Positions 12,200 to 57,438 of a stretch of 64,000 nt of DNA are shown here, one piece after another (position 1 is the first letter of the stretch; each line of letters begins with the position of its first letter). The stretch is from Streptomyces paludis (lineage in GTDB: Bacteria > Actinomycetota > Actinomycetes > Streptomycetales > Streptomycetaceae). Made by a program: the position numbers and the translations under genes. The DNA is taken from assembly GCF_003344965.1 (NCBI RefSeq), contig NZ_CP031194.1, forward strand, positions 6,634,001-6,698,000, given 5' to 3'. The notes under the pieces are model-generated. The model was not told the origin of the DNA and made no database searches. It saw nothing but the letters and a program-made list of their open reading frames with translations.

Positions 12200-12384
12200 A
12201 TGACCACGACCGTACCGCCCACCCCGGGACCCGATCCGCTGCCCGCTCCACCCGGTGGCTCCCAGGACCGCGTCGAGCTGCCCCCCGGCGCCGTCCCCGA
12301 GGGCAGCCGCTACGCCAACGCCGATCTGCTGCCCGTGCCGGTCGCCCGGCGCGACTGGACCACGTACAACTTCACCGCCCTCTG
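12200..12384 (+). pseudogene. NCS1-family permease, N-terminal fragment (split by prophage)
   Basis: The first 61 codons of a nucleobase:cation symporter-1 type permease, ATG 12200 with GAAGGG upstream. The sequence ends RRDWTTYNFTAL and then turns into phage DNA, where the fused frame runs to a stop at 12502. NCS1 proteins continue at this point with WVGMAHNIPSW, exactly what is found at 57502 on the far side of the prophage. The intact gene would encode about 512 residues, the normal length for cytosine/purine/allantoin-type permeases. The host therefore lacks this transporter unless the phage excises or the C-terminal part alone is made. Confidence 0.93.
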
Positions 12385-40804: not shown

Positions 40805-40978
40805 TCAGACCCCCTCGGCGGGGTAAACGTCGATCGGCGTCTCGGCGGTCTGGAGACCGTACGCCAGGCCGTAGCCCACCAAGTCCGGACTCGCGCCGTT
40901 CAGCGCGAAGTCCCAGGCCAGGCCCGGTGTGTCCGGGAAGAGCGAGGCCATGTTGCCGAGGTCATCGAACCACTCCAT
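40805..40978 (-). CDS. Small acidic protein, unknown
   Basis: 57 codons from ATG 40978 (MEWFDDLGNMASLFPD...). Acidic and aromatic, ending at the start of the giant protein gene; the ATG overlaps the upstream stop. No assignment possible. Confidence 0.6.
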   Translation of the reverse strand: MEWFDDLGNMASLFPDTPGLAWDFALNGASPDLVGYGLAYGLQTAETPIDVYPAEGV

Positions 40979-41430
40979 CAGGCCATCCCCTTGAGCTGGC
41001 GGACGAGGTTTCGCGCTGCCTTGCTCGCGCCCGGCTGGTTCGCCATGTGCTCCAGCACCGGCAGGTACTGGATAAGCCTGGTCGCATCCTCGGCGGGCTG
41101 GTTCGGCAGCCCCAGCGCCTCCAGGCCGCCCCCGGCGCCCGCGTCGGCGCCCTCAGTGAGGGGCTGATCAGCCATCTGCGACGGCTCACCGAAACCAATC
41201 AGCCCCTCCGTCACGTCAGCAGGGCCCGCCGGCGCCCCGACGTCGCCGCCGGGCGACTGTGACATGGCCCCGCCCTGCTGGAGCTGCTCCAGATTCTGGC
41301 GCTCCCCGTACGCGCCGCCGGACGGCAGGCGCTGGGGCTGCGCCGGGCCGCCGTCCGTACGGCGCGACAGAGCCCCCGGCCCGCTCGCGGGCGCCGGGCT
41401 GGCGGGCTTGCGGTATCCGCCGCTGGCCAT
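40978..41430 (-). CDS. Structural-region protein, unknown
   Basis: 150 residues. A Gly/Pro/Ser-rich disordered N-terminal half is followed by a helical C-terminal half (IQYLPVLEHMANQPGASKAARNLVRQL). No motif recognised. Located between portal-side small genes and the giant protein. Confidence 0.6.
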   Translation of the reverse strand: MASGGYRKPASPAPASGPGALSRRTDGGPAQPQRLPSGGAYGERQNLEQLQQGGAMSQSPGGDVGAPAGPADVTEGLIGFGEPSQMADQPLTEGADAGAGGGLEALGLPNQPAEDATRLIQYLPVLEHMANQPGASKAARNLVRQLKGMA

Positions 41431-41452
41431 GGCTCCTCCTGAGAACCGTTTT

Positions 41453-41476
41453 CACTTTGCGGACATCCGTAAAGTG
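41453..41476 (-). promoter_or_regulatory. Intergenic hairpin within the late operon
   Basis: CACTTT and AAAGTG with an inner CGG/CCG pair around a short loop. It sits in the 47-bp gap upstream of the 150-residue gene and may set relative expression of portal-side and core genes. Confidence 0.4.
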
Positions 41477-41477
41477 A

Positions 41478-41705
41478 TCAATGGGGCTTGTTCTTGTCGT
41501 TGCTGCCGGTGGTGCCCGCGCTCGCCCCGAGCGAGGTCGAGTTCCAGCTCTGGCCCACGTTGTCCGTCCCGGCGGACCGGGGGTTGGTCTGCGCCTCGCT
41601 CGTGGCGGGCTGCTGCGTGTGGGGCTGCTCCATGCCGCCCTTCAGGCCGGCCATGGGCTGGCTGCCGCCCTCATGGAACGGGTCGCCCGCGAATCCTTCG
41701 CTCAT
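41478..41705 (-). CDS. Small disordered protein, unknown
   Basis: 75 residues from ATG 41705 with AAGGAG upstream. Rich in Gly/Ser/Thr/Asn/Gln, probably unstructured (TSLGASAGTTGSNDKNK). Function unknown. Confidence 0.6.
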   Translation of the reverse strand: MSEGFAGDPFHEGGSQPMAGLKGGMEQPHTQQPATSEAQTNPRSAGTDNVGQSWNSTSLGASAGTTGSNDKNKPH

Positions 41706-41923
41706 GACTTCTCCTTCTTGTGTCCTGCGGCGCAGTACTTCGGCCGGGCGCCCCGGCCGGACCACTCTTTCCTTGGCTCCGAGCACCCGTCGTGCTCGCA
41801 GAGCGCCCTGGCGAAGTCAGGCTCCGCCAGGTTCCGCGCGTGCTCGCGCAGAGTCTCGGGGCACCCGATCCAGTGGGTAGGAGTGCCGTTCTCGGGCTCG
41901 CGCCCGCACTGCTCGCAACTCAT
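41702..41923 (-). CDS. Small zinc-binding protein
   Basis: 73 residues. Cys pairs MSCEQCG, a middle C...HDGC and YCAAGH give a likely zinc site. Overlaps the portal stop and the next gene by 4 bp. Unknown role in the packaging/portal region. Confidence 0.6.
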   Translation of the reverse strand: MSCEQCGREPENGTPTHWIGCPETLREHARNLAEPDFARALCEHDGCSEPRKEWSGRGARPKYCAAGHKKEKS

Positions 41924-43743
41924 GCCGGTACCTGCCGCTTGACGGATGTGGACATGGACGGCCGGCCGCCGGACGTGAGCCCGGCGAGCATGCTCATCAG
42001 GTCGGGGGCGCCGCCCTGCCCCATCCCGGCCTGGCCCGGCGCGACGCCGCCGGGGGCACCGGTGGACGGGTCCATGCCCGGGAGCGGGCCGCCTCCGGCG
42101 TCGGGGCCGCCGCCCATCAGTGCGGCCATGGGGTCGGCCTCCGCCTCCGGCTGCGGCTCGGGCTGGAACGCCTTCAAAATCGCCTCGTGCATCGAGGCGC
42201 CCTTCTCGCGCATCTCGATGATGCTCGCGGCCTGCGCGAGCACCTGCGTGGGGTCCATGCCCTGCTGGGCCATGATCCCGGCCGACGAGAGCATTGCGAA
42301 GATGCCCTGTTTCAGGGCGTCCGTTACCTGTTCGATATCTACCTGGGCCTGAAGCTGGGCCACGTCCACGTCCATCGGAAGCTGGCGCTGGACGAAGTCC
42401 CTCGGCACGAGCTGGTCCCCGCGGAGCTGGAGCAGGAAAACGAGCGCCTGATTCGGGTTCATCCCCGAGGCGAAGCCGTAGCTGACACTCACGCGGTAGT
42501 TGCCCTTGATGTCCTTCGCGGGCGTGTAGGTCTCCTCGAAGGGCGTCCCGTTGATGACGCCGCTGACCGTCTTCTTCGTGTCCGGCCAGAACTTCTCGTC
42601 CATCTCGAAGGCCAGCTCAAGCGCCTGTTCCAACGCCGTGCCGATCATCAGTTGGCCGGTGGCCACCTGGATGTCATAGCCGCCGTTCAGGGCATCCACG
42701 CCTCGGCCGGTGATGATCGACGCGTCCACGTCGCCGGTGGCGCTGGCCGGCGTGCGTGTGCCGCGCTGGACTTCCTGCTGGAGCATGGCCTCCTGCTGCC
42801 AGGCGGCCTGCGGCATGTCGGTGCCGACCCTGCGAATCTTCTCCGGGAAGTTCGTACGGATCACCGCGTCATCGCCCATCGGGATCCGCTGCACATCCGG
42901 GGGTAGCGCCAGCGGCGCCCGTACGGTCTGCTGCGTGGCCTGAAGGCCCAGCATGGCCATGCGGTTGCGGGCCAGGCTCGGCCAGATCACGTCATCGAAC
43001 TGGCCGCGCTCCTGCTCGTCCCACTGCGGCTTCCGCGCGATCGCGACGGGGCACTTCCCGAACAGGTTCGGGGTCTCCATCAACACCAAGTTCGAGCGCT
43101 CGGGCATGTACAGGACGTACGAGTCCTTGTCGCAGTACTTGATCAGCTCCAGCTCAACGTCCCCGCCCACCTGGCGGCCGTACGGCTGGTCACCGCCCAT
43201 GATCCGGGCGGCGTGCTCCGGGAACTTCGCCGCGAGCTGGCGCGCAGTCTCGCGCCAGACCTTCGTGTACGAAATGACGTTGCCGCCCAGGTCGTACTGG
43301 GCGTAGTGCTTCATCGGGTTGTCGATGCGCAGCCGCGGCCGGCCGGCCTTGAAGTCGGGCTCGATCACGATCGGCATCGCCGCGTACGTCAGGTACCAGT
43401 CGCAGCCCGTCGGCATGGCCGACTTCAACTTGGAGTCGATGACATAGCTGTACGCGATCTTCGTCTTGCGCGAGACGAACTTCTTCGCGCGCTCCGAACT
43501 CATCACGCCCGTGGAGCAGTTGATCGACGGCAGGGGTGCCAAGTTCTCCGCGAGCTGGCGCGCGCTGGTGTCGATCGCGTTGGCCGTGATCGGCCGCGGC
43601 CACGCGTCGGGCATGCTGCCCGGCGCGATGTTGTCGAGCTTCTGCGCTCGCGCGTCGAAAACCGTCTGGTGCCGTACGTCCCGCTCGGCGGCGTCACGGC
43701 GCAGGGCCTCCACGCGGCGCGTTATGAGTGATATGTCCGCCAT
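41920..43743 (-). CDS. Portal protein
   Basis: 607 residues from ATG 43743 with AGGAGGTGG upstream. It follows the terminase gene and has the portal pattern: N-terminal helical arm, wing region with ITANAIDTSARQLAEN, a stem/clip part (LVLMETPNLFGKCPVAIARKPQWDEQERGQFDDVI), and a long helix (RNRMAMLGLQATQQT). The C-terminus is Gly/Pro-rich and disordered. Assignment rests on length, pattern and gene order. Confidence 0.78.
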   Translation of the reverse strand: MADISLITRRVEALRRDAAERDVRHQTVFDARAQKLDNIAPGSMPDAWPRPITANAIDTSARQLAENLAPLPSINCSTGVMSSERAKKFVSRKTKIAYSYVIDSKLKSAMPTGCDWYLTYAAMPIVIEPDFKAGRPRLRIDNPMKHYAQYDLGGNVISYTKVWRETARQLAAKFPEHAARIMGGDQPYGRQVGGDVELELIKYCDKDSYVLYMPERSNLVLMETPNLFGKCPVAIARKPQWDEQERGQFDDVIWPSLARNRMAMLGLQATQQTVRAPLALPPDVQRIPMGDDAVIRTNFPEKIRRVGTDMPQAAWQQEAMLQQEVQRGTRTPASATGDVDASIITGRGVDALNGGYDIQVATGQLMIGTALEQALELAFEMDEKFWPDTKKTVSGVINGTPFEETYTPAKDIKGNYRVSVSYGFASGMNPNQALVFLLQLRGDQLVPRDFVQRQLPMDVDVAQLQAQVDIEQVTDALKQGIFAMLSSAGIMAQQGMDPTQVLAQAASIIEMREKGASMHEAILKAFQPEPQPEAEADPMAALMGGGPDAGGGPLPGMDPSTGAPGGVAPGQAGMGQGGAPDLMSMLAGLTSGGRPSMSTSVKRQVPA

Positions 43744-43774
43744 GACCACCTCCTGGGGGCGAACTGTACGACGG

Positions 43775-44479
43775 CTACTTGACCTTCTTCTCCAGCGCAG
43801 TCACGCGCGCATCCAGCGACGCCAGCGTGGGCGCCGGCTTCGTCGGCGTGGTGGGGGTGGTGGGCGGCGACCAGCTCGCAGGGTGCTTGAGCCGCTCGGC
43901 CACGTCGCGGCGGAACTTCGCCATGTCGATGCGGGGATCGACCGGCTTCCGGCGCGTGGCCTCCTTGTGAGCCCAGACGCTGTCAGCGGTCCAGCCGTGG
44001 AAGCGGCAACGGGCGGCCTGGACGCGTACCGCGGTGTAGTACTGCACGGCCGGCCAGTCGCGGCCGACGGCGCCGGTGTTTTCACACTCCAGCCCGTACG
44101 AGACCGCGTTGCCGTCGATCGGCTCGGCGGCGTCCGGCGCCGGGTGTGCGGAGCGCTCGTTGAGGACCGCGTCGTACGCGTTCTTCGCGACCGTCCCGGC
44201 GTGGTTCGCGCGGCCGTTGCCGACGAGGTACAGCCGGCCGGTGCGGGTGAGGTAGTCGTGGCAGAGCGGGCCAGGAAGGTCGTCGCGGCCGTTGAAGACG
44301 ATGCCGGGCAGCGCCGCGCCCTCGCCGCCGGTGTGGTGGATCATCGCGGCGTGCACACTGCCCCACGCGCCCTTGTGGTTGCGGTTGTTGCTCCGCCAGC
44401 CGGGCATCTCCACGATGTCCGTGACGCCCTCGGCGCGGAGCGCCTTGAGCCACTGATCAGGGGTCATCGGTACTGCCAT
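43775..44479 (-). CDS. Endolysin: N-acetylmuramoyl-L-alanine amidase (PGRP/amidase_2)
   Basis: 234 residues from ATG 44479 (GGAGGAG upstream). The zinc amidase fold is clear: MIHHTGGE (first His ligand), YGLECENTG, and VWAHKEATRRKPVDPRID (late His, with catalytic Lys/Asp context). The C-terminus is a Pro/Thr linker and a short coiled coil (LASLDARVTALEKKVK), with no cell-wall-binding domain. Unusually it lies between terminase and portal genes, 22 kb away from the holin-like gene. Confidence 0.88.
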   Translation of the reverse strand: MAVPMTPDQWLKALRAEGVTDIVEMPGWRSNNRNHKGAWGSVHAAMIHHTGGEGAALPGIVFNGRDDLPGPLCHDYLTRTGRLYLVGNGRANHAGTVAKNAYDAVLNERSAHPAPDAAEPIDGNAVSYGLECENTGAVGRDWPAVQYYTAVRVQAARCRFHGWTADSVWAHKEATRRKPVDPRIDMAKFRRDVAERLKHPASWSPPTTPTTPTKPAPTLASLDARVTALEKKVK

Positions 44480-44481
44480 GT

Positions 44482-44625
44482 CTACTCCTCCGGGTCTGTC
44501 CAGCATCGGCAATACACGTCGCGCGCGTTGCTGTCCTGGTGCTCCCAGTGAGCACCCTTGAGGCGCACGCACTGAGAGCCGGTCTCGGGGTGCCGCGATG
44601 GGCACTGGGTGTGAATGCCGTCCAT
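44482..44625 (-). CDS. Tiny zinc-ribbon-like protein
   Basis: 47 codons from ATG 44625. Cysteines in TQCPS, SQCVRL and YCRCW with two His (HPETGS, HWEHQD) fit a small zinc site. Its stop lies 3 bp before the amidase ATG. Unknown role. Confidence 0.6.
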   Translation of the reverse strand: MDGIHTQCPSRHPETGSQCVRLKGAHWEHQDSNARDVYCRCWTDPEE

Positions 44626-44631
44626 CTCGCC

Positions 44632-46575
44632 TCACCAGCCGTTGAGGGAGCCGTCCCAGGCCCCCGCGCCCTGCTGCTGCAAGGCGAAGTCCACGTCCAC
44701 GACCATCTGTCCGGCCGCGTCGCGCTCCGAGGTGAACTCGCTGCTGTTCGCGTGCCAGCCGTCGAAGTCGGTGAGCATCAGCTCCCTGCACCTGATCTCC
44801 GCGAACCACCAGGCCATGACGATGTCGGTCAGGCCCTTGGTCTCCGGGAACCACGCGCACAACTGCTCGATGAGGGCCCTCACGGCCTCAGACTGCGTCT
44901 GTGACGGCAGCCGCACGAGGTGCCGGCCGTCGCGCCAGCCGTCGAAGAGGGTGGCCATGGAGGCCACACCGAAGTCGGAGTCCCACTTCTTCGCGTCGGT
45001 GTGATGCGCGGTCAGCAGCGTGCCGCGCGCGTTCATGAACGTCTTGATCAACTGGTCCTGGACAATGCTGCCCTGGTACGCGTTCTTCTCGACGCGCCAC
45101 TCAGAGATGCTGTACTTCGCGGTCAGGCGCTCCATCTCCGAGCGCATCTCATGCGGCGGCATGCCGCGCTTATTCACCACGTCCAGAATCCAGCGCACGC
45201 CCGTGCGGCGGTCGAGCCCGACCACCACCATGGCGGTGCACCCGGCGGCGGCCGGGTCCAGGCCGGCCACGACCAGCAGGCCGTCCATCCCGTACTTCCG
45301 ATGATCCGACTGGCCGTCGGTCATCACCCCGGGCCACCTCGCCCGATCGATGCAGCCCTCCACGTCCTCGGCCTTGAAGATCGAGTCGTCGGCTACCTGG
45401 TCCTGCATGTAGACCATCGACCAGTTGCGCGGGCGCATTCGCGACCGCTTCCGCGCGAGCGCCACGCCGTGCCACATCGGCCAGAGGCCGTCTCGCGGCC
45501 AGCCCTCGGCCACGGCCTGCTTGCGGGCGCTCACGGTCACCGGCGGCCGGTTCGTCTCCGGCCAGAGGGTGATCCAGTCCTTCGGGTCGTCCGCGAACTC
45601 CAAGACCGCGGGCTGGGTCAGGTACGTCCACGGCGAGGCGCCGTCGCTGTAGTAGCTCGGCTTCAGGATCTCCGAGTAGAGATCCACCGTCGCCATGCGG
45701 GTCCCGACCAGCAGCATCCGGCCGCCCATGTCGGCCACGCGGGATCCCACGATGTTCTGAATCCAGTCGATCTGGCTCTCGAACTGCTGGTGGTTCGTGT
45801 TGTCCACGCAGTCGTCCATGATGACCAGGTCCGTACGGGTGCCGTAAATCTGGCCGCCCAAGCCGACGGCTTCGACCGTGTAATCCTTCTCCCCGGAGTC
45901 CACGCCGGCCATGCGGATCTGTGTGGACGTCCAGGTGGACGCGCCCTCGCTCCAGCCGCCCGGCGGGCCGAAGTCCTGCTGGAGCTGCGCGTACGCCTTC
46001 GACTCGGCCAAGCGCTGCTTGATCGAGAAGAGGAACTTCGCGGCCAGGGCCTGCGTCTTCGAGATCAGCAGGATGCGGATCGACGGGTCCTGAACGATGC
46101 GCCACGTCACGTAGTTGACGGTGATCGTGGTGGACTTCGCGTGCTCCGGCGGTGTGTTGATCAGGACCGTGTCCGGGTCGCCCTTGATGTACCGCTGCAC
46201 CGGGTGGAGGTTCCGGGGCTCCCGGCCCTCCAGGAGGTCGTACCACTGCAAGTGGTGCGCGAAGAGCTGCGTGTCCAGGTACGTCGCGCAGAACTCCGGG
46301 AAGTCCGGGACTTCCTTGCGCGCCGCGGCGGCGCCCTCCGTCCGGGCCCGCAGCGCCCGATCCATGGCGTCCCGGTAGTCCGGGTCGCTCTTCCGGTAGT
46401 ACTCGTGGGTTTTGCGCGAGCAGCCGGCCTGCCGGCAGCCCTCTTCGACCGTCTGCCCCATGCGTACCGCGGCCAGGATGGTCTGCTTCTTCTCCGCGCT
46501 GGAGAGCGTGTTGCGCCGCCGGTCCCGCGGCTTGATGCCCGGGAGCTGGGAGGGATCGGCCACGATCCTGGCCAT
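44632..46575 (-). CDS. terL: Terminase large subunit (with fused N-terminal HTH)
   Basis: 647 residues. The N-terminal 75 residues hold a small-terminase-like HTH (SSAEKKQTILAAVRMGQTVEEGC and AGCSRKTHEYYR), so small-subunit function may be fused; no separate small terminase is seen. The ATPase domain has Walker A PPEHAKST and Walker B DLVIMDD. The nuclease domain begins VVAGLDPAAAG (catalytic Asp) with a later Asp in GLTDIVMAW. It packages DNA into the procapsid. First gene of the late operon; its promoter lies in 46576-46712. Confidence 0.9.
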   Translation of the reverse strand: MARIVADPSQLPGIKPRDRRRNTLSSAEKKQTILAAVRMGQTVEEGCRQAGCSRKTHEYYRKSDPDYRDAMDRALRARTEGAAAARKEVPDFPEFCATYLDTQLFAHHLQWYDLLEGREPRNLHPVQRYIKGDPDTVLINTPPEHAKSTTITVNYVTWRIVQDPSIRILLISKTQALAAKFLFSIKQRLAESKAYAQLQQDFGPPGGWSEGASTWTSTQIRMAGVDSGEKDYTVEAVGLGGQIYGTRTDLVIMDDCVDNTNHQQFESQIDWIQNIVGSRVADMGGRMLLVGTRMATVDLYSEILKPSYYSDGASPWTYLTQPAVLEFADDPKDWITLWPETNRPPVTVSARKQAVAEGWPRDGLWPMWHGVALARKRSRMRPRNWSMVYMQDQVADDSIFKAEDVEGCIDRARWPGVMTDGQSDHRKYGMDGLLVVAGLDPAAAGCTAMVVVGLDRRTGVRWILDVVNKRGMPPHEMRSEMERLTAKYSISEWRVEKNAYQGSIVQDQLIKTFMNARGTLLTAHHTDAKKWDSDFGVASMATLFDGWRDGRHLVRLPSQTQSEAVRALIEQLCAWFPETKGLTDIVMAWWFAEIRCRELMLTDFDGWHANSSEFTSERDAAGQMVVDVDFALQQQGAGAWDGSLNGW

Positions 46576-46712
46576 CCGTGCACCTCCCCGGGGCTGGGGG
46601 CCTCCCTGGGGGCCCGACCGGGGGCGGAGGGTACATCTGTCCGCATATATCAGCCAACGGCCCTACGCTGCGCCCCGACGGTGCCGGAATGACCTCGGGA
46701 GGGACGGCCACC

Positions 46713-46967
46713 ATGAAGGCGAAGTACGCGGGCTATTGCACATCATGTGCAATAAGGATCGAGCCCGGAACGGACATTGAAATCTTTCTTGGCGGATGGA
46801 CTCACACCGCCTGCAAGAAGGCCGAGATAGCCCGGCGGGCAGAGGCCCGCGGCGGGCCGGTCGAACTGGAGCTGGTGATGCCGAAGAGCCGGCCGACGGA
46901 ATACGTCGGCGTACGCAGCCAGAACCGGCGGAGCCTGCGGCAGCTCCACGCCCGCCAGGGGCGCTGA
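46713..46967 (+). CDS. Small zinc-finger protein (divergent from terminase)
   Basis: 84 residues from ATG 46713 (GGGAGGG upstream). MKAKYAGYCTSC begins a CxxC motif completed by WTHTAC, a compact finger seen in small actinophage proteins. The C-terminal half is basic (SQNRRSLRQLHARQGR). It reads away from the terminase gene, so the 137-bp gap contains divergent promoters. It precedes the hairpin-rich region. A DNA- or RNA-binding role is possible. Confidence 0.65.
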   Translation: MKAKYAGYCTSCAIRIEPGTDIEIFLGGWTHTACKKAEIARRAEARGGPVELELVMPKSRPTEYVGVRSQNRRSLRQLHARQGR

Positions 46968-46974
46968 CCTGCCC

Positions 46975-47697
46975 GGATGGCTGGTTCGTGACCATCCGTC
47001 ATAGATGTGGCATGCAATCGGATTTGCAGGCATCTGCTAAGCTGGACCGCAGCGAGCTGGACCGGAAGAAAAGCACTTCCAATCCAGCCCCATATGGGCC
47101 CTTCCAGGGCCCCCAGAACCGCCGACGGCGGACATGACATGAGTGGCCCTGGCCTACGGCTGGGGCCACAGTCATATGGGGCCTACGGCCCCCTAGGGGG
47201 TCTATCAACGATAGATGGTGGGTCACCATCTATCGAGCGAGGCACCCGGGTTTAACACCCGGGGGTCAAACAGTACATAAGTGCCCTGATAGGGCACACA
47301 TGGGGACAGAATCGGACATTACATGTCCGATATGGGTGCCTCGCTCGAATGAGCGAGGGTGCCACCCACCCCCATCAACATGGGTGTGTGTGCCCCAGAC
47401 AGGTCGATGACCTGCGTATATGTGGGCTGATAGCCCACCTGTGGAGAGCCTGGACCTACGGTCTGGGCTCTCTCTGTGTGGTCACACGGTGGTGACCACC
47501 TGTGTGCGCTGCAAGCGCACCTATGGCGTAGCTCAGTGAGCAGGGCTCTGCCCTGACTCACTTCGCCGATCCGCTGTACCGCCAGTCCCCCTCAGGGGGA
47601 CGTCCGGCGGAAAGGGGGTGGACAGTCCTCCGGACTGCTGTCGGTCCGCTGGACCGTGGCGACCGATGGTCGCCAATATGTGCGCTCACGCGCGCAC
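46975..47697 (+). ncRNA. Dense array of short hairpins, many with exact 3-base loops
   Basis: No convincing gene. About twenty perfect stems follow each other. Examples: CCGCC-GAC-GGCGG (47119), GGGGCC-TAC-GGCCCC (47178), TCTATC-AAC-GATAGA (47201), an 11-bp stem with loop GGT (47210-47234), GTGCCCT-GAT-AGGGCAC (47281), CAGGTC-GAT-GACCTG (47400), GTGGGCT-GAT-AGCCCAC (47422), GTGCGCT-GCA-AGCGCAC (47504), CAGGGC-TCT-GCCCTG (47541), GTCCCCC-TCA-GGGGGAC (47585), CAGTCC-TCC-GGACTG (47623), CGGTCC-GCT-GGACCG (47642) and TGGCGACC-GAT-GGTCGCCA (47657). A 14-bp long-range stem joins 47234-47247 to 47334-47347. It looks like a large structured RNA or a DNA-hairpin array; strand is uncertain. Confidence 0.6.
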
Positions 47698-48385
47698 GTA
47701 CGCACACGCGGGCACCCGCGCGCGCGAGCCGGCCACCCTCGCCCTGGCGCCACTTCCCCGCGCCGCTGCGCGGCCCCTCACGGGCCTCTGCGGCCCCCGC
47801 CGCCCCGCCTGCCCACCGGGCCGACTCCAGGCCGCCGCACGGCCGTTGACGACCTTCGCGCCCCGTGTGCGCCTGTGCCCCGGATGTGTGCGCTCCGCAC
47901 TCTCCGGACACTCTCCCTGCGGTCTTCACACACAGCCACACCATGATCACAATCAAAGAACTCTGATCGATGCTTATCTTGAACCAGATTCAACCAGGTA
48001 AGGAGTACCTAAAATATGCAGGTCAGAGGCCCACTGGAAAGGATCTTGAAAAAAGATCCCGACTCACGTTGACAGGAAAGCTGATCAGAGGGCATGGTTA
48101 TGTCACTCCCCAGGGAGCACCGGAAACGGGGCGTAACTGGGACGAGTCCGCAGGGTCTCAAGTGGCTTGTTTCAAGCCCAAGTTGAGCCCTTTCACAACA
48201 GGGGAAGTCACCCACAAGGTCACCCGGGCCTGAAACCGGGGGGGTTGCTGGCCGTGAGCGGCGACCGATGCAGATGGGGGTCACAGCCCGGGCGCCGACG
48301 AACCGCCGACCAACCGGCGGAACAACACTCAGGGAAGAAGGAAGCGCTGCTCATCTCTCCGATGGGGCAGCGTGCACACGACGAT
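47698..48385. other. Gene-poor stretch, GC-rich then AT-richer, with further hairpins
   Basis: 47700-47930 is very GC-rich with no clear gene. 47935-48235 is distinctly lower in GC and holds stems such as TTGAA/TTCAA (47979-47993), GGATCTT/AAGATCC (48039-48058), CTCCC/GGGAG, and a nested CTCAA-GGCTTG-TTT-CAAGCC-TTGAG (48157-48188). An 87-codon frame (47970-48233) has codon use unlike the neighbours and is laced with these stems, so it is not called as a gene. The base-composition drop may mark an origin or a control region. Confidence 0.4.
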
Positions 48386-48576
48386 GACAGCGCGGCCGTA
48401 CGGCCAGCGCGACGCACACCGTACGAGCGGAGCATGTTCGGCATTCCCGGGCGCCACACTCCGGACGGCTGCCAGCCACCTCAGCAGTGGCAGGCCGAAC
48501 CGGCGGCGCCCGGCGGCGCACATGCTCCGCAGCACGTCGCACGGTGTGCGGCGCAGCGGCCACCGGCCGCGCTGTC
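48386..48576. ncRNA. Long nested rod-like inverted repeat
   Basis: Five stems nest one within another: GACAGCGCGGCCG 48386-48398 with 48564-48576 (13 bp, perfect); CGCACACCG 48413-48421 with 48542-48550; GGAGCATG 48429-48436 with 48521-48528; CCGGGCGCC 48447-48455 with 48505-48513; and an imperfect GCCAGCCAC/GTGGCAGGC at the tip. The result is a rod of about 190 nt ending just ahead of the gene at 48639. No gene is evident inside. Confidence 0.6.
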
Positions 48577-48638
48577 ACTCGTCATGCGGGCAGGGCGTGA
48601 TTTCCCTGCCCGTTTGATGAGTCAGGAGAGGACTCGAC

Positions 48639-48935
48639 ATGAGCACCAGCATCATCAGCAGCGCAGTGATCGACCTGGTCAAGCCGGAGACCCTGGGGTA
48701 CATCGTCTACCCGCCCGGAGGGCAGCGCCTGCACTCGGTCTACGTGTGCGCCGAGCCCCTGAATCCGGGCTCGTACTGGACGCGCACGACAACCTCTGTC
48801 CGTAGGCGGACAGAGGTTCGCGGCTCCGTCGCCATGCCGACCGTGCAGGAGGCGGTTGACCTGGTGCGGCGAAGCATGGTCGAGCGGGGTTTGCACGGAA
48901 ACCTCGGCCGCATCGTGGCCGTTCGGCGCCCCTGA
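48639..48935 (+). CDS. Small protein with an internal perfect palindrome, unknown
   Basis: 98 residues from ATG 48639 with AGGAGAGGA upstream. The first 50 and last 35 residues look like normal protein (VKPETLGYIVYPPGGQRL; VQEAVDLVRRSMVERG). Between them a perfect 12-bp palindrome with loop TAGG (48791-48818) encodes TSVRRRTEVRG. No function recognised. Confidence 0.55.
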   Translation: MSTSIISSAVIDLVKPETLGYIVYPPGGQRLHSVYVCAEPLNPGSYWTRTTTSVRRRTEVRGSVAMPTVQEAVDLVRRSMVERGLHGNLGRIVAVRRP

Positions 48936-48952
48936 GTACCTGTAAGAGCCAT

Positions 48953-48998
48953 CGGGTCCACACCTTCGGGTGTGGGCCCCCTTGGTTCCGCAGGAACC
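48953..48998 (+). terminator. Two hairpins after the 98-residue gene
   Basis: CCACACC-TTCG-GGTGTGG followed by GGTTCC-GCA-GGAACC (48984-48998). The first is terminator-like. The second is another short three-base-loop stem of the type seen in the array. Confidence 0.55.
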
Positions 48999-49052
48999 GC
49001 GCCCGGGGCTGATTACCCCAGGTGACCAACTGCCCATGGAGAGGGGCAGATC

Positions 49053-49295
49053 ATGACCGACACCATGTTCGGGGTGCCCGACGCGGTCATCTCCGAGCAC
49101 ACGCACGACGGCGCGAAGGTCGTTTCCGTGATGACCTTCGCGCAGGACATGGAGGTGGCGCGCCGCCTCCGCCACTCCGTCCGCGTCTGGACGGGGGAGG
49201 ACCGCGAGGGCCGTCCGATGGCGATCATCTGGACGGCGGGCCTTCGGAGCGGAAGGCTTCTGGCGGCCTACGAGTTCACCCCGGGGGGTGAGTGA
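49053..49295 (+). CDS. Small phage protein, unknown
   Basis: 80 residues from ATG 49053 with GGAGAGGGG upstream. Alternating beta and helix (AVISEHTHDGAKVVSVMTF; RLRHSVRVWTG). Ends GTGA, overlapping the next start. No motif recognised. Confidence 0.6.
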   Translation: MTDTMFGVPDAVISEHTHDGAKVVSVMTFAQDMEVARRLRHSVRVWTGEDREGRPMAIIWTAGLRSGRLLAAYEFTPGGE

Positions 49296-49612
49296 CCGTG
49301 GCCAAGATCCTGTCCAAGGAGCCCGACCCGGGCTCGCAGGTCTGCGGGTACGAGATCACCGTAGACGGCATGTCGCCTGAGTACTGCGGCGAGCTGAAAG
49401 CCCTTGGGCTGTACTACTGCCGCGCGCATCACGAGCGCGTGTGGATCGTCCATGGCTACATGTGGGTGGCCCCTGGCACCTCTCAGGGGCTCCCCCCGCT
49501 GGCGGAGCGCCCCGTGCCGGCATACAGCGGCGAGGCCGCGATCTACAGCGTGGCGTACCTGACCAGGCGCGAGGGCAACGCCCTGCGGGCCGACCCGTAC
49601 GACTGCCTGTGA
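49292..49612 (+). CDS. Small phage protein, unknown
   Basis: 106 residues from GTG 49292 (an internal GTG at 49298 is also possible). Contains Cys in QVCGYE, EYCGEL and YYCRAHH, perhaps a metal site. Followed directly by a strong terminator. Function unknown. Confidence 0.6.
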   Translation: MTVAKILSKEPDPGSQVCGYEITVDGMSPEYCGELKALGLYYCRAHHERVWIVHGYMWVAPGTSQGLPPLAERPVPAYSGEAAIYSVAYLTRREGNALRADPYDCL

Positions 49613-49619
49613 CCCCACA

Positions 49620-49647
49620 GAGACCCCCGCCCCCCGGCGGGGGTCTC
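49620..49647 (+). terminator. Rho-independent-type terminator
   Basis: GAGACCCCCGCC and GGCGGGGGTCTC pair over 12 bp with a CCCC loop. It closes the 49053-49612 operon. The following gap to 49834 contains only one more short stem, GGAGGC-AGG-GCCTCC (49717-49731). Confidence 0.85.
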
Positions 49648-49834
49648 CCTTCCTTCCCTGCGGCCAAGTGGCCGCGTGTCTCCCGGACCTCTCCCCGGCA
49701 CGGCGCGCGGCCTCTTGGAGGCAGGGCCTCCGGCGGTCATCGCCTCGTTCGAAGACCGATCGATGACCGCAGCGCAGAGCGTCGGGCGCCGCCCGAACAC
49801 TGCGCACGTCCATGTACTCAGAGAGAGGGATCAC

Positions 49835-50095
49835 ATGGTCGACAACGACGAGAAACAGATGTTGCCGGAGGTCGCGGTGTACGTCACCGCGATGGACGCC
49901 GCGCGGCGGCCGGCCCGGCCGCGGGCTGCGGCACGCTGCCCGACTGCCAGACGCCCGGCGGCACTTGCGGTTGCGGCACGGGCTGACACGAACACCCCCT
50001 CGCCCGGCGGCGGCAGCATCCCGCCGGGCGGGCCGGGGCACTGGAGAGGGAGCCATGCCGCAGCAGCGGGTACAGAGGCCCGTCAGAGCGCCTGA
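49835..50095 (+). CDS. Small protein, reading frame uncertain
   Basis: ATG 49835 follows GAGAGAGGGA. The first 25 residues (MVDNDEKQMLPEVAVYVTAMD...) look genuine. Further on this frame becomes Arg/Ala/Pro-rich and runs 41 bp into the next gene. In another frame the same DNA encodes a Gly/Cys-rich end (GCGTLPDCQTPGGTCGCGTG) stopping at 49986, well spaced before the next gene. A frameshift near 49900-49920, natural or an error, would join the two. Function unknown. Confidence 0.4.
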   Translation: MVDNDEKQMLPEVAVYVTAMDAARRPARPRAAARCPTARRPAALAVAARADTNTPSPGGGSIPPGGPGHWRGSHAAAAGTEARQSA

Positions 50096-50189
50096 CAGGC
50101 GCCGCGCGGAGCGCGAGAATGAAGCAGCACAGGAGCGGCGCCCGGAGGTCCGCAGGGATGTCTGGAACCGCTGGTTCAAGGAGAGGTGA
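50055..50189 (+). CDS. Tiny Arg/Glu-rich protein, unknown
   Basis: 44 codons from ATG 50055 with a very good ribosome site (GGAGAGGGAG). Highly charged helix (RRRAERENEAAQERRPEVRRD) ending WNRWFKER. Its stop lies 3 bp before the next ATG. Confidence 0.55.
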   Translation: MPQQRVQRPVRAPDRRRAERENEAAQERRPEVRRDVWNRWFKER

Positions 50190-50192
50190 ACC

Positions 50193-50642
50193 ATGGAGAT
50201 CACACCAGAGGTTATTGCCCGACTCGGCAAGATCAGCAAGTCGGTCACGTATGGATACGTGAGCGTGCAGATCGAGTTCCATGACACGTATGCGTGGGAT
50301 GACCCCCGCGTGCCGTGGTACCTGATCGGCAGGGGTGGCAACTACCCGCAGCAGTTCACCGGCGCGCCGGTCCGGGACAAAGACGTGCCATGTAACTACA
50401 AAAACTCCAGCGGCCACGCCGCTATCTACTTGCTGGGCGCCGTGAGCGCTGGTCGCCAGGAGCGCCTTACCGTCGAGGACCGCGAGTTCCTCGCGGACAT
50501 TCGGTCGGCGGTCGAGCCAGCAACGGGGGACGCGGAGCTTTGGCGGAAGCTCGGCGTCCAGCTCGGTATCGGCCCCGTGAGGGGGGTCGAAGCGGGCCAC
50601 CTTGCCGACCTGTCTCCCGGGGCTTCCTGTCGTACGCATTGA
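50193..50642 (+). CDS. Phage protein, unknown
   Basis: 149 residues from ATG 50193 with AAGGAGAGG upstream. Begins with a short helix, then a beta region (VTYGYVSVQIEFHDTYAWDD). No motif known. Its stop coincides with the -35 region of the promoter for the CRISPR-like repeat unit. Confidence 0.6.
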   Translation: MEITPEVIARLGKISKSVTYGYVSVQIEFHDTYAWDDPRVPWYLIGRGGNYPQQFTGAPVRDKDVPCNYKNSSGHAAIYLLGAVSAGRQERLTVEDREFLADIRSAVEPATGDAELWRKLGVQLGIGPVRGVEAGHLADLSPGASCRTH

Positions 50643-50643
50643 G

Positions 50644-50673
50644 CTGACAGGACCACCACGGGCGTGCCATAGT
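50644..50673 (+). promoter_or_regulatory. Sigma-70-type promoter of the CRISPR-like unit
   Basis: CTGACA and CATAGT are separated by 18 bp, immediately after the stop of the upstream gene. The predicted start near 50680 lies about 30 bases before the first repeat. Confidence 0.5.
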
Positions 50674-50708
50674 AGGCACAGCCGGGGGCAGCCAGCACCG
50701 GTACCCCG

Positions 50709-50977
50709 TTACTCCCCGCCTTCGCGGGGTTGGACCGTAGAGCTGTTGCAGGTTCACATGCTCCCCGCGTCCGTGGGGACGCAGTACGTCCCGCGTCAGC
50801 GGGAATGGCCCGTTCAGTGAGGGCGCGCAGCTTGTATGCACACCCCGCAGCTGCGGGGATGGCCCGTTGGACGGGGACGCTTTCCTGTTATGCGCACCCC
50901 GCGTACGCGGGGATGGCCCGTCGATAGCCTCCGCGGCTCTTCTGGGTGCTCTTCCCCGCGCGAGCGGGGACGGCCCG
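50709..50977 (+). CRISPR. Six type I-E-like CRISPR repeats without cas genes (irregular mini-array)
   Basis: Six units share the type I-E architecture CCCCGC-NNNN-GCGGGG-ATNNNCCG. The 16-nt hairpins start at 50714, 50763, 50789, 50843, 50897 and 50954. Units 3-6 end in ATGGCCCG or ACGGCCCG; units 1 and 2 have diverged ends (TTGGACCG, ACGCAGTA). Taking 29-nt repeats, gaps are 20, none, 25, 25 and 28 nt, shorter and less even than the usual 32. Conceptual frames show the GPSPRTRG/PRVRGDGP peptides that type I-E arrays always give. The unit has its own promoter and terminator. No cas genes are in the window. It may be a decayed array, a phage anti-CRISPR RNA or a guide array for the host system. 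Confidence 0.6.
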
Positions 50978-50993
50978 ACATTCGGGCCAAAGC

Positions 50994-51024
50994 AAAAGGC
51001 CCCCGCCTCTTTCGGGGGCCTTTT
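50994..51024 (+). terminator. Terminator of the CRISPR-like unit
   Basis: AAAAGGCCCCCG and CGGGGGCCTTTT form a perfect 12-bp stem with a 7-nt loop and T-run. A smaller stem GGCCCG/CGGGCC (50972-50988) stands just before it, at the end of the last repeat. Confidence 0.9.
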
Positions 51025-51065
51025 GTGCTGGGCGCTCACGCCCAGCCGATCGGGAAGGTGATCCC

Positions 51066-51656
51066 ATGACGACTATTCAGGTCATCAAGTGCACGTGGGC
51101 GCTTGAGCTGTGCCGACGCTACGAGGGGCGCGGCGAGACCCAGACCGCGTACATCGAGCTGGACTTGAGCGAGGGAACCTTGCTCGCTGACTATGACTCT
51201 CAGATCGACGGCTCCGCGCCGAGTGCCGTACGTACCGGTTTCGAGCGCCGGTACAGGATTCCGGTCCTGACCGCCGTCGCTGTCAATCGGCTGCTTGCCA
51301 AGCTGGCGCCGCTGGCGGACCGCATTCTTGCGGACTGGGAGAAGAGCTGGAACGGCGAAACCCATGTGGCTGTCCTCGGGGCCGACGCGAAGTCGGCGGA
51401 GAAGGGGATGGACGTCGTCCTGGAGGCCGGCTTCGACGCGCCCGACATCGTCGGAGAGTGGGACGCCGACGACGTCACCAACGGGTCGGAGGCCGACGAG
51501 TACGACATCGTCGCCGGCACGACCGATGAGCGGCTGACCGAGATCGCAGCCGAGATCACCGAGGGCATGATCGGCTCCAGCGACCACACGGTGGGCGTCA
51601 TTCACGAGCTGGACGCGTACCTCCGCCGCGTCCGCGCGGAGGCCGACGCCGAGTAG
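51066..51656 (+). CDS. Acidic phage protein, unknown
   Basis: 196 residues from ATG 51066. Starts with a beta-rich half (VIKCTWALELCRRYEG, AYIELDLSEG). From about residue 105 on it is strongly acidic (GEWDADDVTNGSEADEYDIV). No known motif. Acidic proteins in this position of phage genomes are often inhibitors of host nucleic-acid-binding defence proteins, but that is only a possibility here. Confidence 0.65.
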   Translation: MTTIQVIKCTWALELCRRYEGRGETQTAYIELDLSEGTLLADYDSQIDGSAPSAVRTGFERRYRIPVLTAVAVNRLLAKLAPLADRILADWEKSWNGETHVAVLGADAKSAEKGMDVVLEAGFDAPDIVGEWDADDVTNGSEADEYDIVAGTTDERLTEIAAEITEGMIGSSDHTVGVIHELDAYLRRVRAEADAE

Positions 51657-51664
51657 CGGCACGC

Positions 51665-51892
51665 ATGCGGCAGCCCCCGGGACACACTCCCAGGGGCTGC
51701 CTCTGTGCACCCGCACCGCGCTGCGGTGCTGCCATCTACGGGGATGCCGCAGGCGGTACGGGCGATTGGGGGCTCGCTCAGCGAGCCGTTCGGAACGCGG
51801 CCCACGTGCGCTGGCCGTCCGGGCACCTCGTGCCGACGGGGCCCCTGATGCACCGCGCGCAGGTCTGCACGTGCCGTATGTACGCGCTGTAA
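51665..51892 (+). CDS. Possible small Cys-containing protein (weak)
   Basis: 75 codons whose 5' part overlaps the terminator. The end (HVRWPSGHLVPTGPLMHRAQVCTCRMYAL) looks protein-like, but no ribosome site is seen and the start is uncertain. Confidence 0.25.
   Translation: MRQPPGHTPRGCLCAPAPRCGAAIYGDAAGGTGDWGLAQRAVRNAAHVRWPSGHLVPTGPLMHRAQVCTCRMYAL
51669..51701 (+). terminator. Hairpin terminator after the acidic protein gene
   Basis: GGCAGCCCC and GGGGCTGCC form a 9-bp stem with a 15-base loop, 13 bp after the stop codon. Confidence 0.75.
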
Positions 51893-51947
51893 GCGGTGAG
51901 CGTCCGCCCCCGCTCTATGGCGGTGGCGCGGCCTATGACCGGGCCGA

Positions 51948-52448
51948 TCACGCGTTGTCCCCGAGCTTTCCGGCGCCCGCGCGCAGCAGCGCGGCCACGT
52001 CCCCCGGATCACAGAGCTGACCAGGCGCGACGACGGGCGACGCCCAGTGGACGTCGCTGGTGCCGCGATTCGACGGATGCGGCACCTTGAGCCACCCGCC
52101 GACGCCGAGCATCGTGCCGTACGGCTCGCCCCAGCGAGCGCAGGTCCCTACAGGCACCAGCGCGTGATACCAGGGCCCGGGGTGCGCTACCACGGGCCCG
52201 CCAATCATGACGGGCATGGCATCCACGACGTCCGTCACGCCCGTCACGCCCAGCGCGGCGTGCACGAGGTTCGGGTGCATCTTCACCGCGTCGAACCGGA
52301 CTCCCACGCGCAGCACCGCAGGGCGCCCGCGCTGCCAGTCCTCGTACGCGAAGTCGGGCTCCGTGATGGAGCTGGCGAGCCAGCGCGCGATGCGGATATC
52401 CGCCTCCATGCGCCGCCGCCTGAGCATGACATTCCGGGTATCACTCAT
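51948..52448 (-). CDS. Conserved Streptomyces mobile-element protein, unknown
   Basis: 166 residues from ATG 52448 with GGGGAG upstream. Mixed alpha/beta, with ADIRIARWLASSI and RPAVLRVGVRFDAVKM, a type often found next to GntR regulators in Streptomyces integrating elements. Divergent from the GntR gene, sharing the 107-bp control region, so it is probably under that repressor. Function unknown. Confidence 0.6.
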   Translation of the reverse strand: MSDTRNVMLRRRRMEADIRIARWLASSITEPDFAYEDWQRGRPAVLRVGVRFDAVKMHPNLVHAALGVTGVTDVVDAMPVMIGGPVVAHPGPWYHALVPVGTCARWGEPYGTMLGVGGWLKVPHPSNRGTSDVHWASPVVAPGQLCDPGDVAALLRAGAGKLGDNA

Positions 52449-55750: not shown

Positions 55751-55876
55751 GTGGAGGACGATCAGCCGACGGAGTCGGAGTGCTGGCGGGGGTTCTGGGA
55801 CATCATCGGCGCCGAGGCGTACCGCCTCTGGCGTGAGGACCAGACCCCGCCAGCGGCGCATCAGGACGCAGCCTGA
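55751..55876 (+). CDS. Small acidic protein convergent with integrase
   Basis: 41 codons from GTG 55751 with AAGGAGGAG upstream. Acidic and Trp-rich (ECWRGFWDIIGAEAYRLW). Its 3' end overlaps the integrase stop by 16 bp. Possibly real because of the strong ribosome site. Confidence 0.5.
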   Translation: MEDDQPTESECWRGFWDIIGAEAYRLWREDQTPPAAHQDAA

Positions 55877-57438
55877 TCCATTTCCCATACAGGGATGATC
55901 TCGATCTTGTTGTACTGCTTGCCCGGGGTCTTCACGATGTTGATGCGGCCCACCACCTTCCCCAGCGCAGCCCGCTGCTTGGCGGGCTGCATGCGGGGCC
56001 AGAGGTCCGCCAGCGTGGCGAAATCCTCGGCGGAGGGGATCACGCCCTCGCCCGAGTCCAGGCGCAGCACTTCGAGCCGGGATTCGAGGTGGGATACCTC
56101 CGCGTCCAGCTCCTCCTTTTTGTTCCTGAAGTCCTCCTCGGAGACGAGCGCCTTCAGGTACAGATCGAGCAGCCGCGCACCCTCGGTGCGCTTTCCGGTC
56201 AACTCCCTCTCGACTGAAGGGATGTCGGACACAGCGCGCGCCCGGCGTGCGGCGCGCTTCATCGCCATCACACCCATATCCTGACCGCGACTGCGCTCTA
56301 GCAGCCAGGCCAAGATGGCGTCCTCCGCGCGGCGGAGCGTGACGGTCACGCCCTTGCACGCCTTCACGCTGATGTCCGGGCACCGGAAGATTTTAGTGTC
56401 TCCGCCGCCAGATCGGAGCACGGCGGACGCCACTAGGCGCCGGTCGCACAGGTTCCCGGCGGCGTTCTGGGCCTGGCAGCGCAGTAGTCCAGAGCAGGAG
56501 TACTTGGCCGACGTGGGCCAAGAGATGCCCTTGCTGGCCTCGCGGCGGCGCTTGTAGCGCTCCCAGGTGGCCATGTTGATGACCGGCTTATGCTTTCCCG
56601 CAGCCCAGTTGTCGTACGTGCTGGGCTTCTTGGACTGCCGGCCGTGCTTGGCCCGGTACTCGGGGCCGCGCCAGCGGATCAGGCCGGCTCCGAAGCCGGA
56701 GTCCATGACCACCTGCCACTGGGTGGCCTTCATGACCGTGCCGGACAGTGATCGGATGCCCCGCTCGGCCATGTCGGCCGCGATGCCGGCGACGGACTCA
56801 CCGTCGGTGAAGCGTTCGTACGCCTCGGCAAGGGCTGGCCCCCGGGCGGGGTCCACTACCAAGACACCCTTACAGGTGTCGCAGCTCAGGTACTCCTGCG
56901 GCGCGTCTTCTTTGCGGCGGCAGTCGGGGCAGCGCTGGTAACCGAAGCGGGCCTGGCCCGTGTGGGGCAGGCCCTTGCGGTGGCGGCGCTCGTGCGCCTC
57001 CTGCCACGTCGCGCCGATGATGCCCGACTGCAAGTCGGCGACCAAGAGCATGTTGTCCCGGCTGAAGCGGCCGTGGTACGTGGTTGTGTCGAAATCCTCG
57101 GTGACGGCGACGAGTCGGCCGCCGGCCTTCTCTAGCTCCCGAAGGTTCACCTGGGACTCGTAGTTGTTGCGCCCGAAGCGCGACCACTTCCAGACCAGGA
57201 CGACGTCCGCCTCTCCGGCGCGAACGCGCTCAATGACAGAGGCGATCTGCCGCTTGGCGGACTCTCTGCCGGTGAGGTTCAGGTCCTCAACGGGCTTGCC
57301 GATGATTGTGATGTTGTTCTTCGCCGCGTATTCGGAGCAGGAGAAGAGCTGTTGCTCCGGGCTCTGCATCTCCTCCTTCTCGGTGCTGACACGGATGTAC
57401 ACGATGGCGCGCAGAGTGCGCGCGTGGGTAGCTGACAT
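55861..57438 (-). CDS. int: Large serine integrase
   Basis: 525 residues from ATG 57438 (GGAGAGGG five bases upstream). Resolvase domain: catalytic Ser18 in YIRVSTEKEE, followed by conserved Arg residues (RFSRDN). A Cys cluster (CPDCRRKEDAPQEYLSCDTC) lies between the catalytic and recombinase domains. The recombinase domain follows, then a zinc ribbon (CSGLLRCQ...CDRRL) and a coiled coil (KEELDAEVSHLESRLEVL) like those controlling direction in phiC31-type enzymes. The gene reads away from attR. It would join attP and attB at TG, with an unknown directionality factor for excision. Confidence 0.95.
   Translation of the reverse strand: MSATHARTLRAIVYIRVSTEKEEMQSPEQQLFSCSEYAAKNNITIIGKPVEDLNLTGRESAKRQIASVIERVRAGEADVVLVWKWSRFGRNNYESQVNLRELEKAGGRLVAVTEDFDTTTYHGRFSRDNMLLVADLQSGIIGATWQEAHERRHRKGLPHTGQARFGYQRCPDCRRKEDAPQEYLSCDTCKGVLVVDPARGPALAEAYERFTDGESVAGIAADMAERGIRSLSGTVMKATQWQVVMDSGFGAGLIRWRGPEYRAKHGRQSKKPSTYDNWAAGKHKPVINMATWERYKRRREASKGISWPTSAKYSCSGLLRCQAQNAAGNLCDRRLVASAVLRSGGGDTKIFRCPDISVKACKGVTVTLRRAEDAILAWLLERSRGQDMGVMAMKRAARRARAVSDIPSVERELTGKRTEGARLLDLYLKALVSEEDFRNKKEELDAEVSHLESRLEVLRLDSGEGVIPSAEDFATLADLWPRMQPAKQRAALGKVVGRINIVKTPGKQYNKIEIIPVWEMDQAAS

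Follow-up and report, generated by a model that had tools for sequence, protein, structure and literature searches.

A prophage-borne array of shortened type I-E crRNA-like units as candidate mimics of host regulatory guides in Streptomyces

The window analyzed here, a stretch of 64,000 nucleotides from the Streptomyces paludis genome (8.45 Mb, one contig), carries a prophage in which six CRISPR-type hairpins are framed by a promoter-like and a terminator-like signal. The question raised by this locus is whether such a unit would act through its repeats, as bait for the host Cas proteins, or through the guides that lie between them. The comparisons described below favor the latter, and we assign a probability of about 0.57 to the reading that the phage carries here a series of type I-E crRNAs with shortened guides, which would be multi-guide mimics of the CreR/CreA regulatory crRNAs. 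The features of the unit and its setting, in window coordinates, are as follows.

50644-51025, +: whole unit, promoter-like site, six I-E-type hairpins and terminator-like repeat
50644-50673, +: promoter-like CTGACA-N18-CATAGT with TG before the second hexamer (consensus match only)
50714-50737, +: repeat 1, hairpin CCCCGC-CTTC-GCGGGG, then handle TTGGACCG
50738-50757, +: guide P1, 20 nt
50763-50786, +: repeat 2, hairpin with one G-T pair and without canonical handle, running into repeat 3
50789-50812, +: repeat 3, hairpin TCCCGC-GTCA-GCGGGA, then handle ATGGCCCG
50813-50837, +: guide P3, 25 nt
50843-50866, +: repeat 4, hairpin CCCCGC-AGCT-GCGGGG, then handle ATGGCCCG
50867-50891, +: guide P4, 25 nt, resembling a host cas-linked guide
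50897-50920, +: repeat 5, hairpin CCCCGC-GTAC-GCGGGG, then handle ATGGCCCG
50921-50948, +: guide P5, 28 nt
50954-50977, +: repeat 6, hairpin CCCCGC-GCGA-GCGGGG, then handle ACGGCCCG
50993-51025, +: terminator-like perfect inverted repeat of 13 nt with 7 nt between the arms, and a T-run
36216-36247, +: protospacer of a spacer from a host array of 61-nt period (30/32, TAG in front)
36342-36373, +: protospacer of a second host spacer (29/32, AAG in front)
41920-43743: portal gene, packaging region
44632-46575, −: prophage terminase large subunit (phrog_38, E 4e-69)
55861-57438, −: serine integrase near the right prophage end (Resolvase and Recombinase domains)

Most of the architecture given in the original prediction was recovered. 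The promoter CTGACA-N18-CATAGT is present (one match in a consensus scan of the window versus a mean of 0.0 in 50 shuffles), the unit closes with the predicted terminator, for which a terminator consensus scan gives a second, shorter stem (51005-51019, 6 pairs; one found versus 0.3 in shuffles), and the interval is gene-free as claimed, with called genes on either side only (50193-50642 and 51066-51656) and no convincing gene between them; purely mechanical open reading frames do overlap the unit. The hairpins start at 50714, 50763, 50789, 50843, 50897 and 50954 (+), giving spacings of 49, 26, 54, 54 and 57 nt, and the six repeats span 256 nt. With the 29-nt repeat length of type I-E, by which the guide lengths were set, the predicted gaps of 20, none, 25, 25 and 28 nt are reproduced; repeats 2 and 3 nearly adjoin, so that no guide would fit between them. 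Six hairpins are indeed found, but the exact form CCCCGC-N4-GCGGGG that had been claimed for all holds in four of them only, since repeat 2 has the right stem arm GTGGGG and the stem of repeat 3 is preserved by the paired change TCCCGC/GCGGGA. Likewise, the repeat end expected throughout is exact in repeats 3, 4 and 5 only, being replaced by a variant in repeats 1 and 6 and absent in repeat 2, and an 8-nt handle matching NNGG.CCG stands behind five of the six repeats. As anticipated, such hairpins are rare in shuffled sequence: a relaxed pattern finds six in 64 kb, all inside the unit, versus a mean of 0.20 and a largest count of 2 in 100 shuffles. An Rfam search returned no match at the gathering score.

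Also in line with expectation, the window repeats resemble the strain's own I-E-type repeats, sharing with them the I-E hairpin and, except at repeat 2, the ATGG.CC handle, and they agree with the subtype of the host CRISPR-Cas system (I-E). Judged as a canonical I-E array, which has near-identical repeats, a 61-nt period and 32-nt spacers, the unit falls short. Arrays of 61-nt period are found in the host at 2.896-2.934 Mb, with repeats such as GTGCTCCCCGCGCGTGCGGGGATGGTCCC, and the genome has one Cse1 match and one Cas6e match, within an operon Cse1-Cse2-Cas7-Cas5-Cas6e at 3.204-3.210 Mb. This set of proteins makes the suggested use of host Cas6e and Cascade plausible, and because the repeats are host-like, both would likely take up the array RNA. 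The operon is adjoined by a divergent large gene with an NPHP3_N domain, which we take to be of STAND/NACHT type. No match to the cas1_ECOLI model was found in the host genome, and nothing in it passes the cut-off of the cas3_core model. On sequence, the operon fits the cas3-less Streptomyces I-E/STAND module, which the available text of PMC8730458 describes as having no Cas3, adaptation module or array.

The predicted prophage location is borne out by terminase, portal, amidase and serine integrase genes around the unit, which sits between the packaging genes (terminase, portal) and the serine integrase, toward the right prophage end, and by an IMG/VR record (L002) whose 13,946 compared bases all agree with window 38221-52166 (100% identity). 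The record is the same genome, and so provides no independent homologue of the window array. Neither of the genes flanking the unit matches a Pfam or PHROG entry at E 0.01. Of 35 extracted host array spacers, two match the prophage, the best of 175 shuffled spacers reaching 25 positions; the host thus remembers this phage family, yet still carries a member of it. A spacer match to a resident prophage is a situation that often points to an anti-CRISPR, and without a recognised cas3 the matched prophage may simply be tolerated. Both of these spacers match perfectly over their first 14 positions, though the genome has no cas1_ECOLI match and cas3 stays below the cut-off.

The link between the unit and the host cas genes is provided by guide P4. 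A whole-genome search with the phage array gave one strong non-self match, in which repeat 4-P4-repeat 5 aligns at 83% (E 1e-13) with a unit at genome 3209708-3209782, upstream of cse1, that constitutes a two-repeat mini-array of the host. Its guide, TTGGATGGGGGCGCGTTATTCGTAT, agrees with P4 in 18 of 25 letters, positions 1-5 and 7-10 being identical, and the hairpin loops differ. Upstream of the mini-array, at a distance of 0.55 kb, there is an AAT-flanked site (genome 3210326-3210338, PAM plus seed), AAT-TTGGATGGGGG, which is fitted by the host guide at 11 of 11 positions and by P4 at 9 of 11 (positions 1-5 and 7-10). The pairing of P4 at the cas site is short, with mismatches at positions 6 and 11. 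The seed-plus-PAM pattern occurs at only two sites in 8.45 Mb, versus six for the reversed control, and we calculate odds near 1 in 2,000 that a site would by chance fall no farther than about 1.5 kb from the mini-array. The second AAN-TTGGANGGGG site (genome 8080443-8080455, L293:1501) has AAG in front and lies just inside the start codon of a gene without visible cas link. Here P4 fits all of positions 1-10, and its letters alone therefore do not choose between the two sites; on this account the preferred reading is held slightly less firmly, and the decoy, relic and inter-phage alternatives are rated slightly higher, than they otherwise would be.

On the 3' side of the cas-locus site there follow a promoter-like TAGCAT, a 37-aa peptide (MVDRLWEW...) that reads as a single-pass membrane peptide, and a terminator-like hairpin. 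CreTA modules have the order guarded unit, mini-array, cas operon. The arrangement at this locus would be the same as that of these modules, which are named in the portion of PMC12737573 consulted. For the remaining window guides no convincing target in this host genome and no PAM-flanked cas or guard-promoter site was found: P1 has no exact AAN seed site in its own genome, P3 has one (4030917) and P5 one (3890759, with 58 sites when one mismatch is allowed), both away from the cas operon and in DNA that reads as coding. For P3 a further site, which begins at window 53464 and precedes a called gene by 40 nt, was rejected, as it has ACT rather than AAN in front and such matches are expected by chance.

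Guides of the kind carried by the host mini-array recur across the genus. The 81 cas loci examined were chosen from Cse1 matches, which occur in 150 of 392 genomes, and after each of 2,023 hairpin-plus-handle positions the next 11 nt, with base 6 ignored, were sought behind AAN in the same locus. The guide recurs in this manner at 19 positions, 15 of them with the target on the same strand within 600 nt, whereas a frame-shift control with shifts of 2-28 nt yields a mean of 0.37 and a maximum of 2 near pairs (tallied from the printed list). Over all 55 shifts the mean is 3.2 near targets and the maximum 34, because shifts that run into neighboring repeats match by repetition, and only the range 2-28 is used as the control. 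Sixteen pairs (the 15, and one at L283) are read as regulatory, and base 6 is mismatched in 14 of them. The target lies at most 0.8 kb upstream of the Cse1 match in ten and 3.4-4.0 kb upstream in four, the outlying ones being L228 (7.9 kb upstream) and L244 (on the far side of the operon). In L203, L206 and L283 it is found 27-29 nt before the longest cse1 open reading frame, and in L238 at the ribosome-binding site of a small open reading frame, read as a two-span membrane protein, that has a relative in cas locus L265. Since CreR autorepression is on record for types I-B, I-E and V-A (PMC13131331, as far as its text was available), the guides on the host side appear to be of a known kind, here present in many loci. 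As a side observation, many I-E cas loci in the genus have a CreR-like guide paired with an AAN target, in most cases on the upstream side of cse1, the loci concerned including L197, L205, L214, L227, L228, L241, L244, L247, L255, L278, L281 and L282.

Short arrays are not confined to this prophage. In IMG/VR, a search for paired hairpins at a distance of 41-59 nt found 88 short-array stretches, some of which look like ordinary host arrays, versus 2 with the reversed pattern; among the genus genomes the pattern occurs in 56 of 392, many of them with ordinary 61-nt arrays that have one odd spacer, and the reversed pattern in none of 392. For the period count 86 of the 88 stretches were taken, less 8 that were ambiguous for strand, leaving 78 stretches with 106 periods. 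A period of 49 or 50 is found in 58 of these and of 43 in nine, which amounts to a loss of 12 and 18 nt relative to the canonical 61. One Cas7 footprint measures 6 nt, and the losses would equal two and three such footprints. L287, L288, L321, L322 and L223 were discarded as pattern matches that are not arrays.

Guides were kept from 73 loci where the handle reads T/C-G at positions 2-3 and has C as its sixth or seventh letter, and one of 107, being shorter than 14 nt, was dropped. Among the resulting 106 are 12 taken from loci in genomes of the genus, and some of the sources may not be phage; canonical periods, three or more, occur in four source loci (L020, L103, L106 and L115). Guide pairs sharing at least 9 of 10 seed positions number 49, versus 0.25 in shuffles, with counts that are not all independent owing to related arrays among the sources (L066, L086). 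Three families are apparent: A, AGNYYNAGGGG, in a host cas locus and in eight loci that are mobile or viral; B, approximately SGWTANGRGCA, in four loci, of which L215 is not clearly phage, and a host cas locus; and C, GCTTGNTAYT, with guides of 14-15 nt and periods of 43-44, in seven loci plus one weaker member. A single array, from Streptomyces sp. MH60 (L066/L290), holds A, B and C guides together, and two more A-guide loci lie beside an integrase and a primase (L289) and beside an endolysin (L219). In all three families the seed is conserved, base 6 varies and the distal half is largely free. When Cascade pairs with its target the sixth base is flipped out, and the conserved seed with its variable base 6 is the pattern to be expected of such pairing. 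Guides of the P3 and P4 types were not found in other viral arrays.

The resemblance of P4 to a host guide is paralleled in these collections. When the 106 guides are compared with 17 host cas-linked guides, 12 match at 9 or more of 10 positions (shuffles 0.09) and 20 at 8 or more (shuffles 1.06), one of the 12 being P4 against the host guide to which it had led. Five of the 17 host guides (L164, L203, L206, L238 and L283) were known before the comparison, L164 through its resemblance to P4 and L203 through a phage guide. With these two and the window guides left out, 11 of 102 match at 9 or more positions (0.1) and 19 of 102 at 8 or more (0.9); with IMG/VR loci only, and without the canonical-array loci, the figures are 7 of 85 (0.1) and 15 of 85 (0.8). 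A 10-position AAN site within the 81 cas loci is found for 14 of 106 guides versus 4.68 in shuffles (maximum 10 in 200 shuffles), the excess at 9 positions (23 versus 16.8) is not significant, and in a separate count such sites are no commoner than in shuffles at 8 positions (22 versus 21.0) or at 9 (7 versus 6.7). At 12 positions, matches lacking AAN likewise outnumber those in shuffles (12 versus 5.1), and the AAN sites in the 81 loci are not all promoters. The notion that short-array guides match cas loci generally, irrespective of PAM, was abandoned (43 of 107 at 10 positions versus 40.2 in shuffles). Family B has sites at the cse1 leader in L203, L206 and L283, and the 14-nt guides of family C have no pattern match in the 81 cas loci, their nearest host guide being that of L282 (7-8 of 10).

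Two further guides were observed in passing. In L221 (G329:C19:44000-58000), a locus that is not clearly prophage, a 21-nt short-array guide at 7433-7453 fits a cas7-like coding stretch in several cas loci behind AAT or AAC; the stretch reads LNRDD, which we take to be conserved in Cas7e. A possible additional guide family, GATGCNCATGA, is seen in L070 (3897) and L085 (6761), with an AAC-flanked match in a cas-locus region (L277, 15504).

Together, these results suggest a sequence of events in which the unit would be transcribed from its own promoter, the transcript cut by host Cas6e, and each product, consisting of an 8-nt handle, a 20-28-nt guide and a hairpin, loaded into host Cascade. The guides seem to carry information, because P4 resembles a host cas-linked guide and the guides of other mobile elements resemble others, and a complex so guided would likely go to a site that a host regulatory guide uses. 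P4 would imitate the CreA/CreR-like guide upstream of host cse1, a step with support in the sequence, and Cascade carrying it could bind the AAT-flanked site upstream of the 37-aa membrane-peptide unit and keep this unit silent; the remaining guides may imitate regulators of other hosts, as in the mobile elements that match guides aimed at the cse1 leader. The candidate target would accordingly be the 37-aa unit in this host and the cse1 leader in family B hosts. As an outcome, Cascade would be drawn away and redirected to cas or guard promoters of the host itself, making the unit an anti-CRISPR that acts by means of its guide and gains additionally from competing for Cas proteins, and the phage would be protected either by a silent guard toxin together with drained Cascade or by shutdown of the cas operon.

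That the RNA is a decoy, as the original prediction had proposed, can at most be part of the account, and the unit is probably more than that. According to this alternative, of the Racr type, it is only the repeats that act, by tying up Cas6e and Cas7 in useless complexes, and the letters of the guides are irrelevant, in accord with the host-like repeats, the missing guide room between repeats 2 and 3 and the absence of clear targets for P1, P3 and P5, all of which may serve other hosts or act only as decoys. A precedent exists in the aeruginosa I-E system (PMC10651486, available text). A decoy would not, however, be expected to resemble host cas-linked guides, nor would conserved seeds with a variable sixth base be expected across different arrays, and the 8-nt handles of five of the six window repeats are missing from the RacrIF1 RNA as presented in the available text of the same paper. 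We therefore consider the decoy alone a doubtful explanation. A degenerate relic, in which pieces of host CRISPR or CreA sequence were captured by recombination and have no present function, could account for the irregular spacing and the repeat without handle; it is improbable in view of the promoter-like site and terminator that frame the unit, the compensated stem of repeat 3 and the recurrence of short arrays in IMG/VR at 88 stretches versus 2 in the control.

The other function originally proposed, guides directed through host Cascade against rival phages, has been described for virus-borne mini-CRISPR arrays of archaea (PMC6858448, in the part available), which are similarly cas-less and would use host Cas proteins. 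Those arrays serve inter-viral conflict, whereas the window unit has spacers 4-12 nt short of 32, and similar DNA was absent from 50,697 phage records at E 0.01, a weak test by which a protospacer of 20-25 nt could be missed. Short-array guides do not target their own flanks either (one AAN-flanked match versus two for reversed guides), the guide families elsewhere are conserved in the seed only and no cas3 of this host exceeds the cut-off, leaving an inter-phage role a shade less credible than a relic. Least credible, and by a wide measure, are hairpins unrelated to CRISPR, such as binding sites or attenuators. GC-rich palindromes of this appearance do exist in viral contigs (L050, L116 and L122, with CCCCGC...GCGGGG at periods of 54-55 on both strands, of REP-type look and non-CRISPR), but the window unit has a strand-specific handle, similarity to the host I-E-type repeats and an 83% match to a cas-linked unit.

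Regulatory mimicry by shortened crRNAs, the reading preferred here, has several relatives among known systems. Racr RNAs, or solitary repeat units, are phage-borne, cas-less repeat RNAs matched to the host subtype and often placed just 3' of a predicted promoter (Camara-Wilpert 2023, PMC10651486, partial text); the window unit shares these traits, but has six repeats with guides and handles in place of one, and the letters of its guides seem to matter. It is likewise at variance with the definition of a single repeat as having no others within 100 bp. In the account given there of SRUFinder, full repeat matches within 100 bp are clustered as arrays and disregarded, a procedure that would tend to set aside arrays like this one. 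CreR and CreA resemble crRNAs and have a guide that is partially complementary to a cas or toxin promoter (PMC12737573, PMC13131331, in part; the primary CreR and CrePA papers are cited by the latter as Liu 2023 and Shu 2025), a likeness for which P4 is the only candidate in the window. As far as these texts extend, CreR and CreA are host RNAs linked to CRISPR loci, whereas the proposed mimic is carried by a prophage, at 6.68 Mb and thus 3.47 Mb from the cas operon (3.20-3.21 Mb) rather than in or beside it, with several guides per unit; the PAM-flanked seed site used by such RNAs is available to P4 at L164:12335 (9 of 11), and the unrelated second site is fitted equally.

Short guides have precedents as well. 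In the sections available, the I-B system of P. thermoglucosidasius represses its target without cutting it when guides measure at most 26 nt (PMC10551041), and truncated R-loops do not trigger Cas2/3 in type I-F1, type I-E being less restricted (PMC7296934); these cases are engineered or in vitro. E. coli I-E Cascade with shortened spacers is reported in the text consulted to be capable of interference (Kuznedelov 2016), so that short need not mean non-cutting, although the present host has no recognised cas3. The available passages of PMC13131331 mention, giving no detail, that CRISPR effectors are put to use by some phages for repressing CreTA or CrePA toxin genes. Among the matches listed from titles and abstract openings of the open-licence literature, with few subscription journals or preprints, no phage-encoded CreR/CreA mimic is described.

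RNA anti-CRISPRs have so far been known as repeat decoys, and here the spacer, too, appears to be a weapon; if this is true, the phage shuts down Cascade or the guard toxin by way of a feedback loop that belongs to the host. Since the triggers of guard toxins include Acr proteins and Racr RNAs (PMC12737573, partial text), a guide that mimics the antitoxin would be a counter-counter-defence. We hold at even odds the broader proposal that actinophages carry guide-level anti-CRISPRs, as multi-guide arrays in which truncated crRNAs, their spacers reduced by multiples of roughly one Cas7 footprint (6 nt), imitate the CreR/CreA of several hosts at once, whereby Cascade would silence its own operon, guard toxins would be held in check and Cas proteins titrated, and CRISPR immunity with its abortive back-up would be evaded, that of the Streptomyces I-E/STAND module included. 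In more general terms, CRISPR immunity of bacteria has off-switches of its own, and phages may silence it by mimicking these.

The analysis also provides a lead on the Streptomyces I-E/STAND module itself, which in this strain holds a hidden mini-array with an identifiable candidate target. This CreA-like mini-array, within an operon of a kind described in print as array-less, lies on the minus strand of L164 (genome 3198001-3215000) at 11708-11782, with the seed target at 12335, also minus. Such I-E loci are further accompanied by a conserved small open reading frame of about 59 aa (L164:12364-12540, minus; L206:5107-5280; also L201, L203, L207, L212, L283 and L285), with 48-67% identity, which reads as a membrane protein and in several loci stands beside the mini-array.
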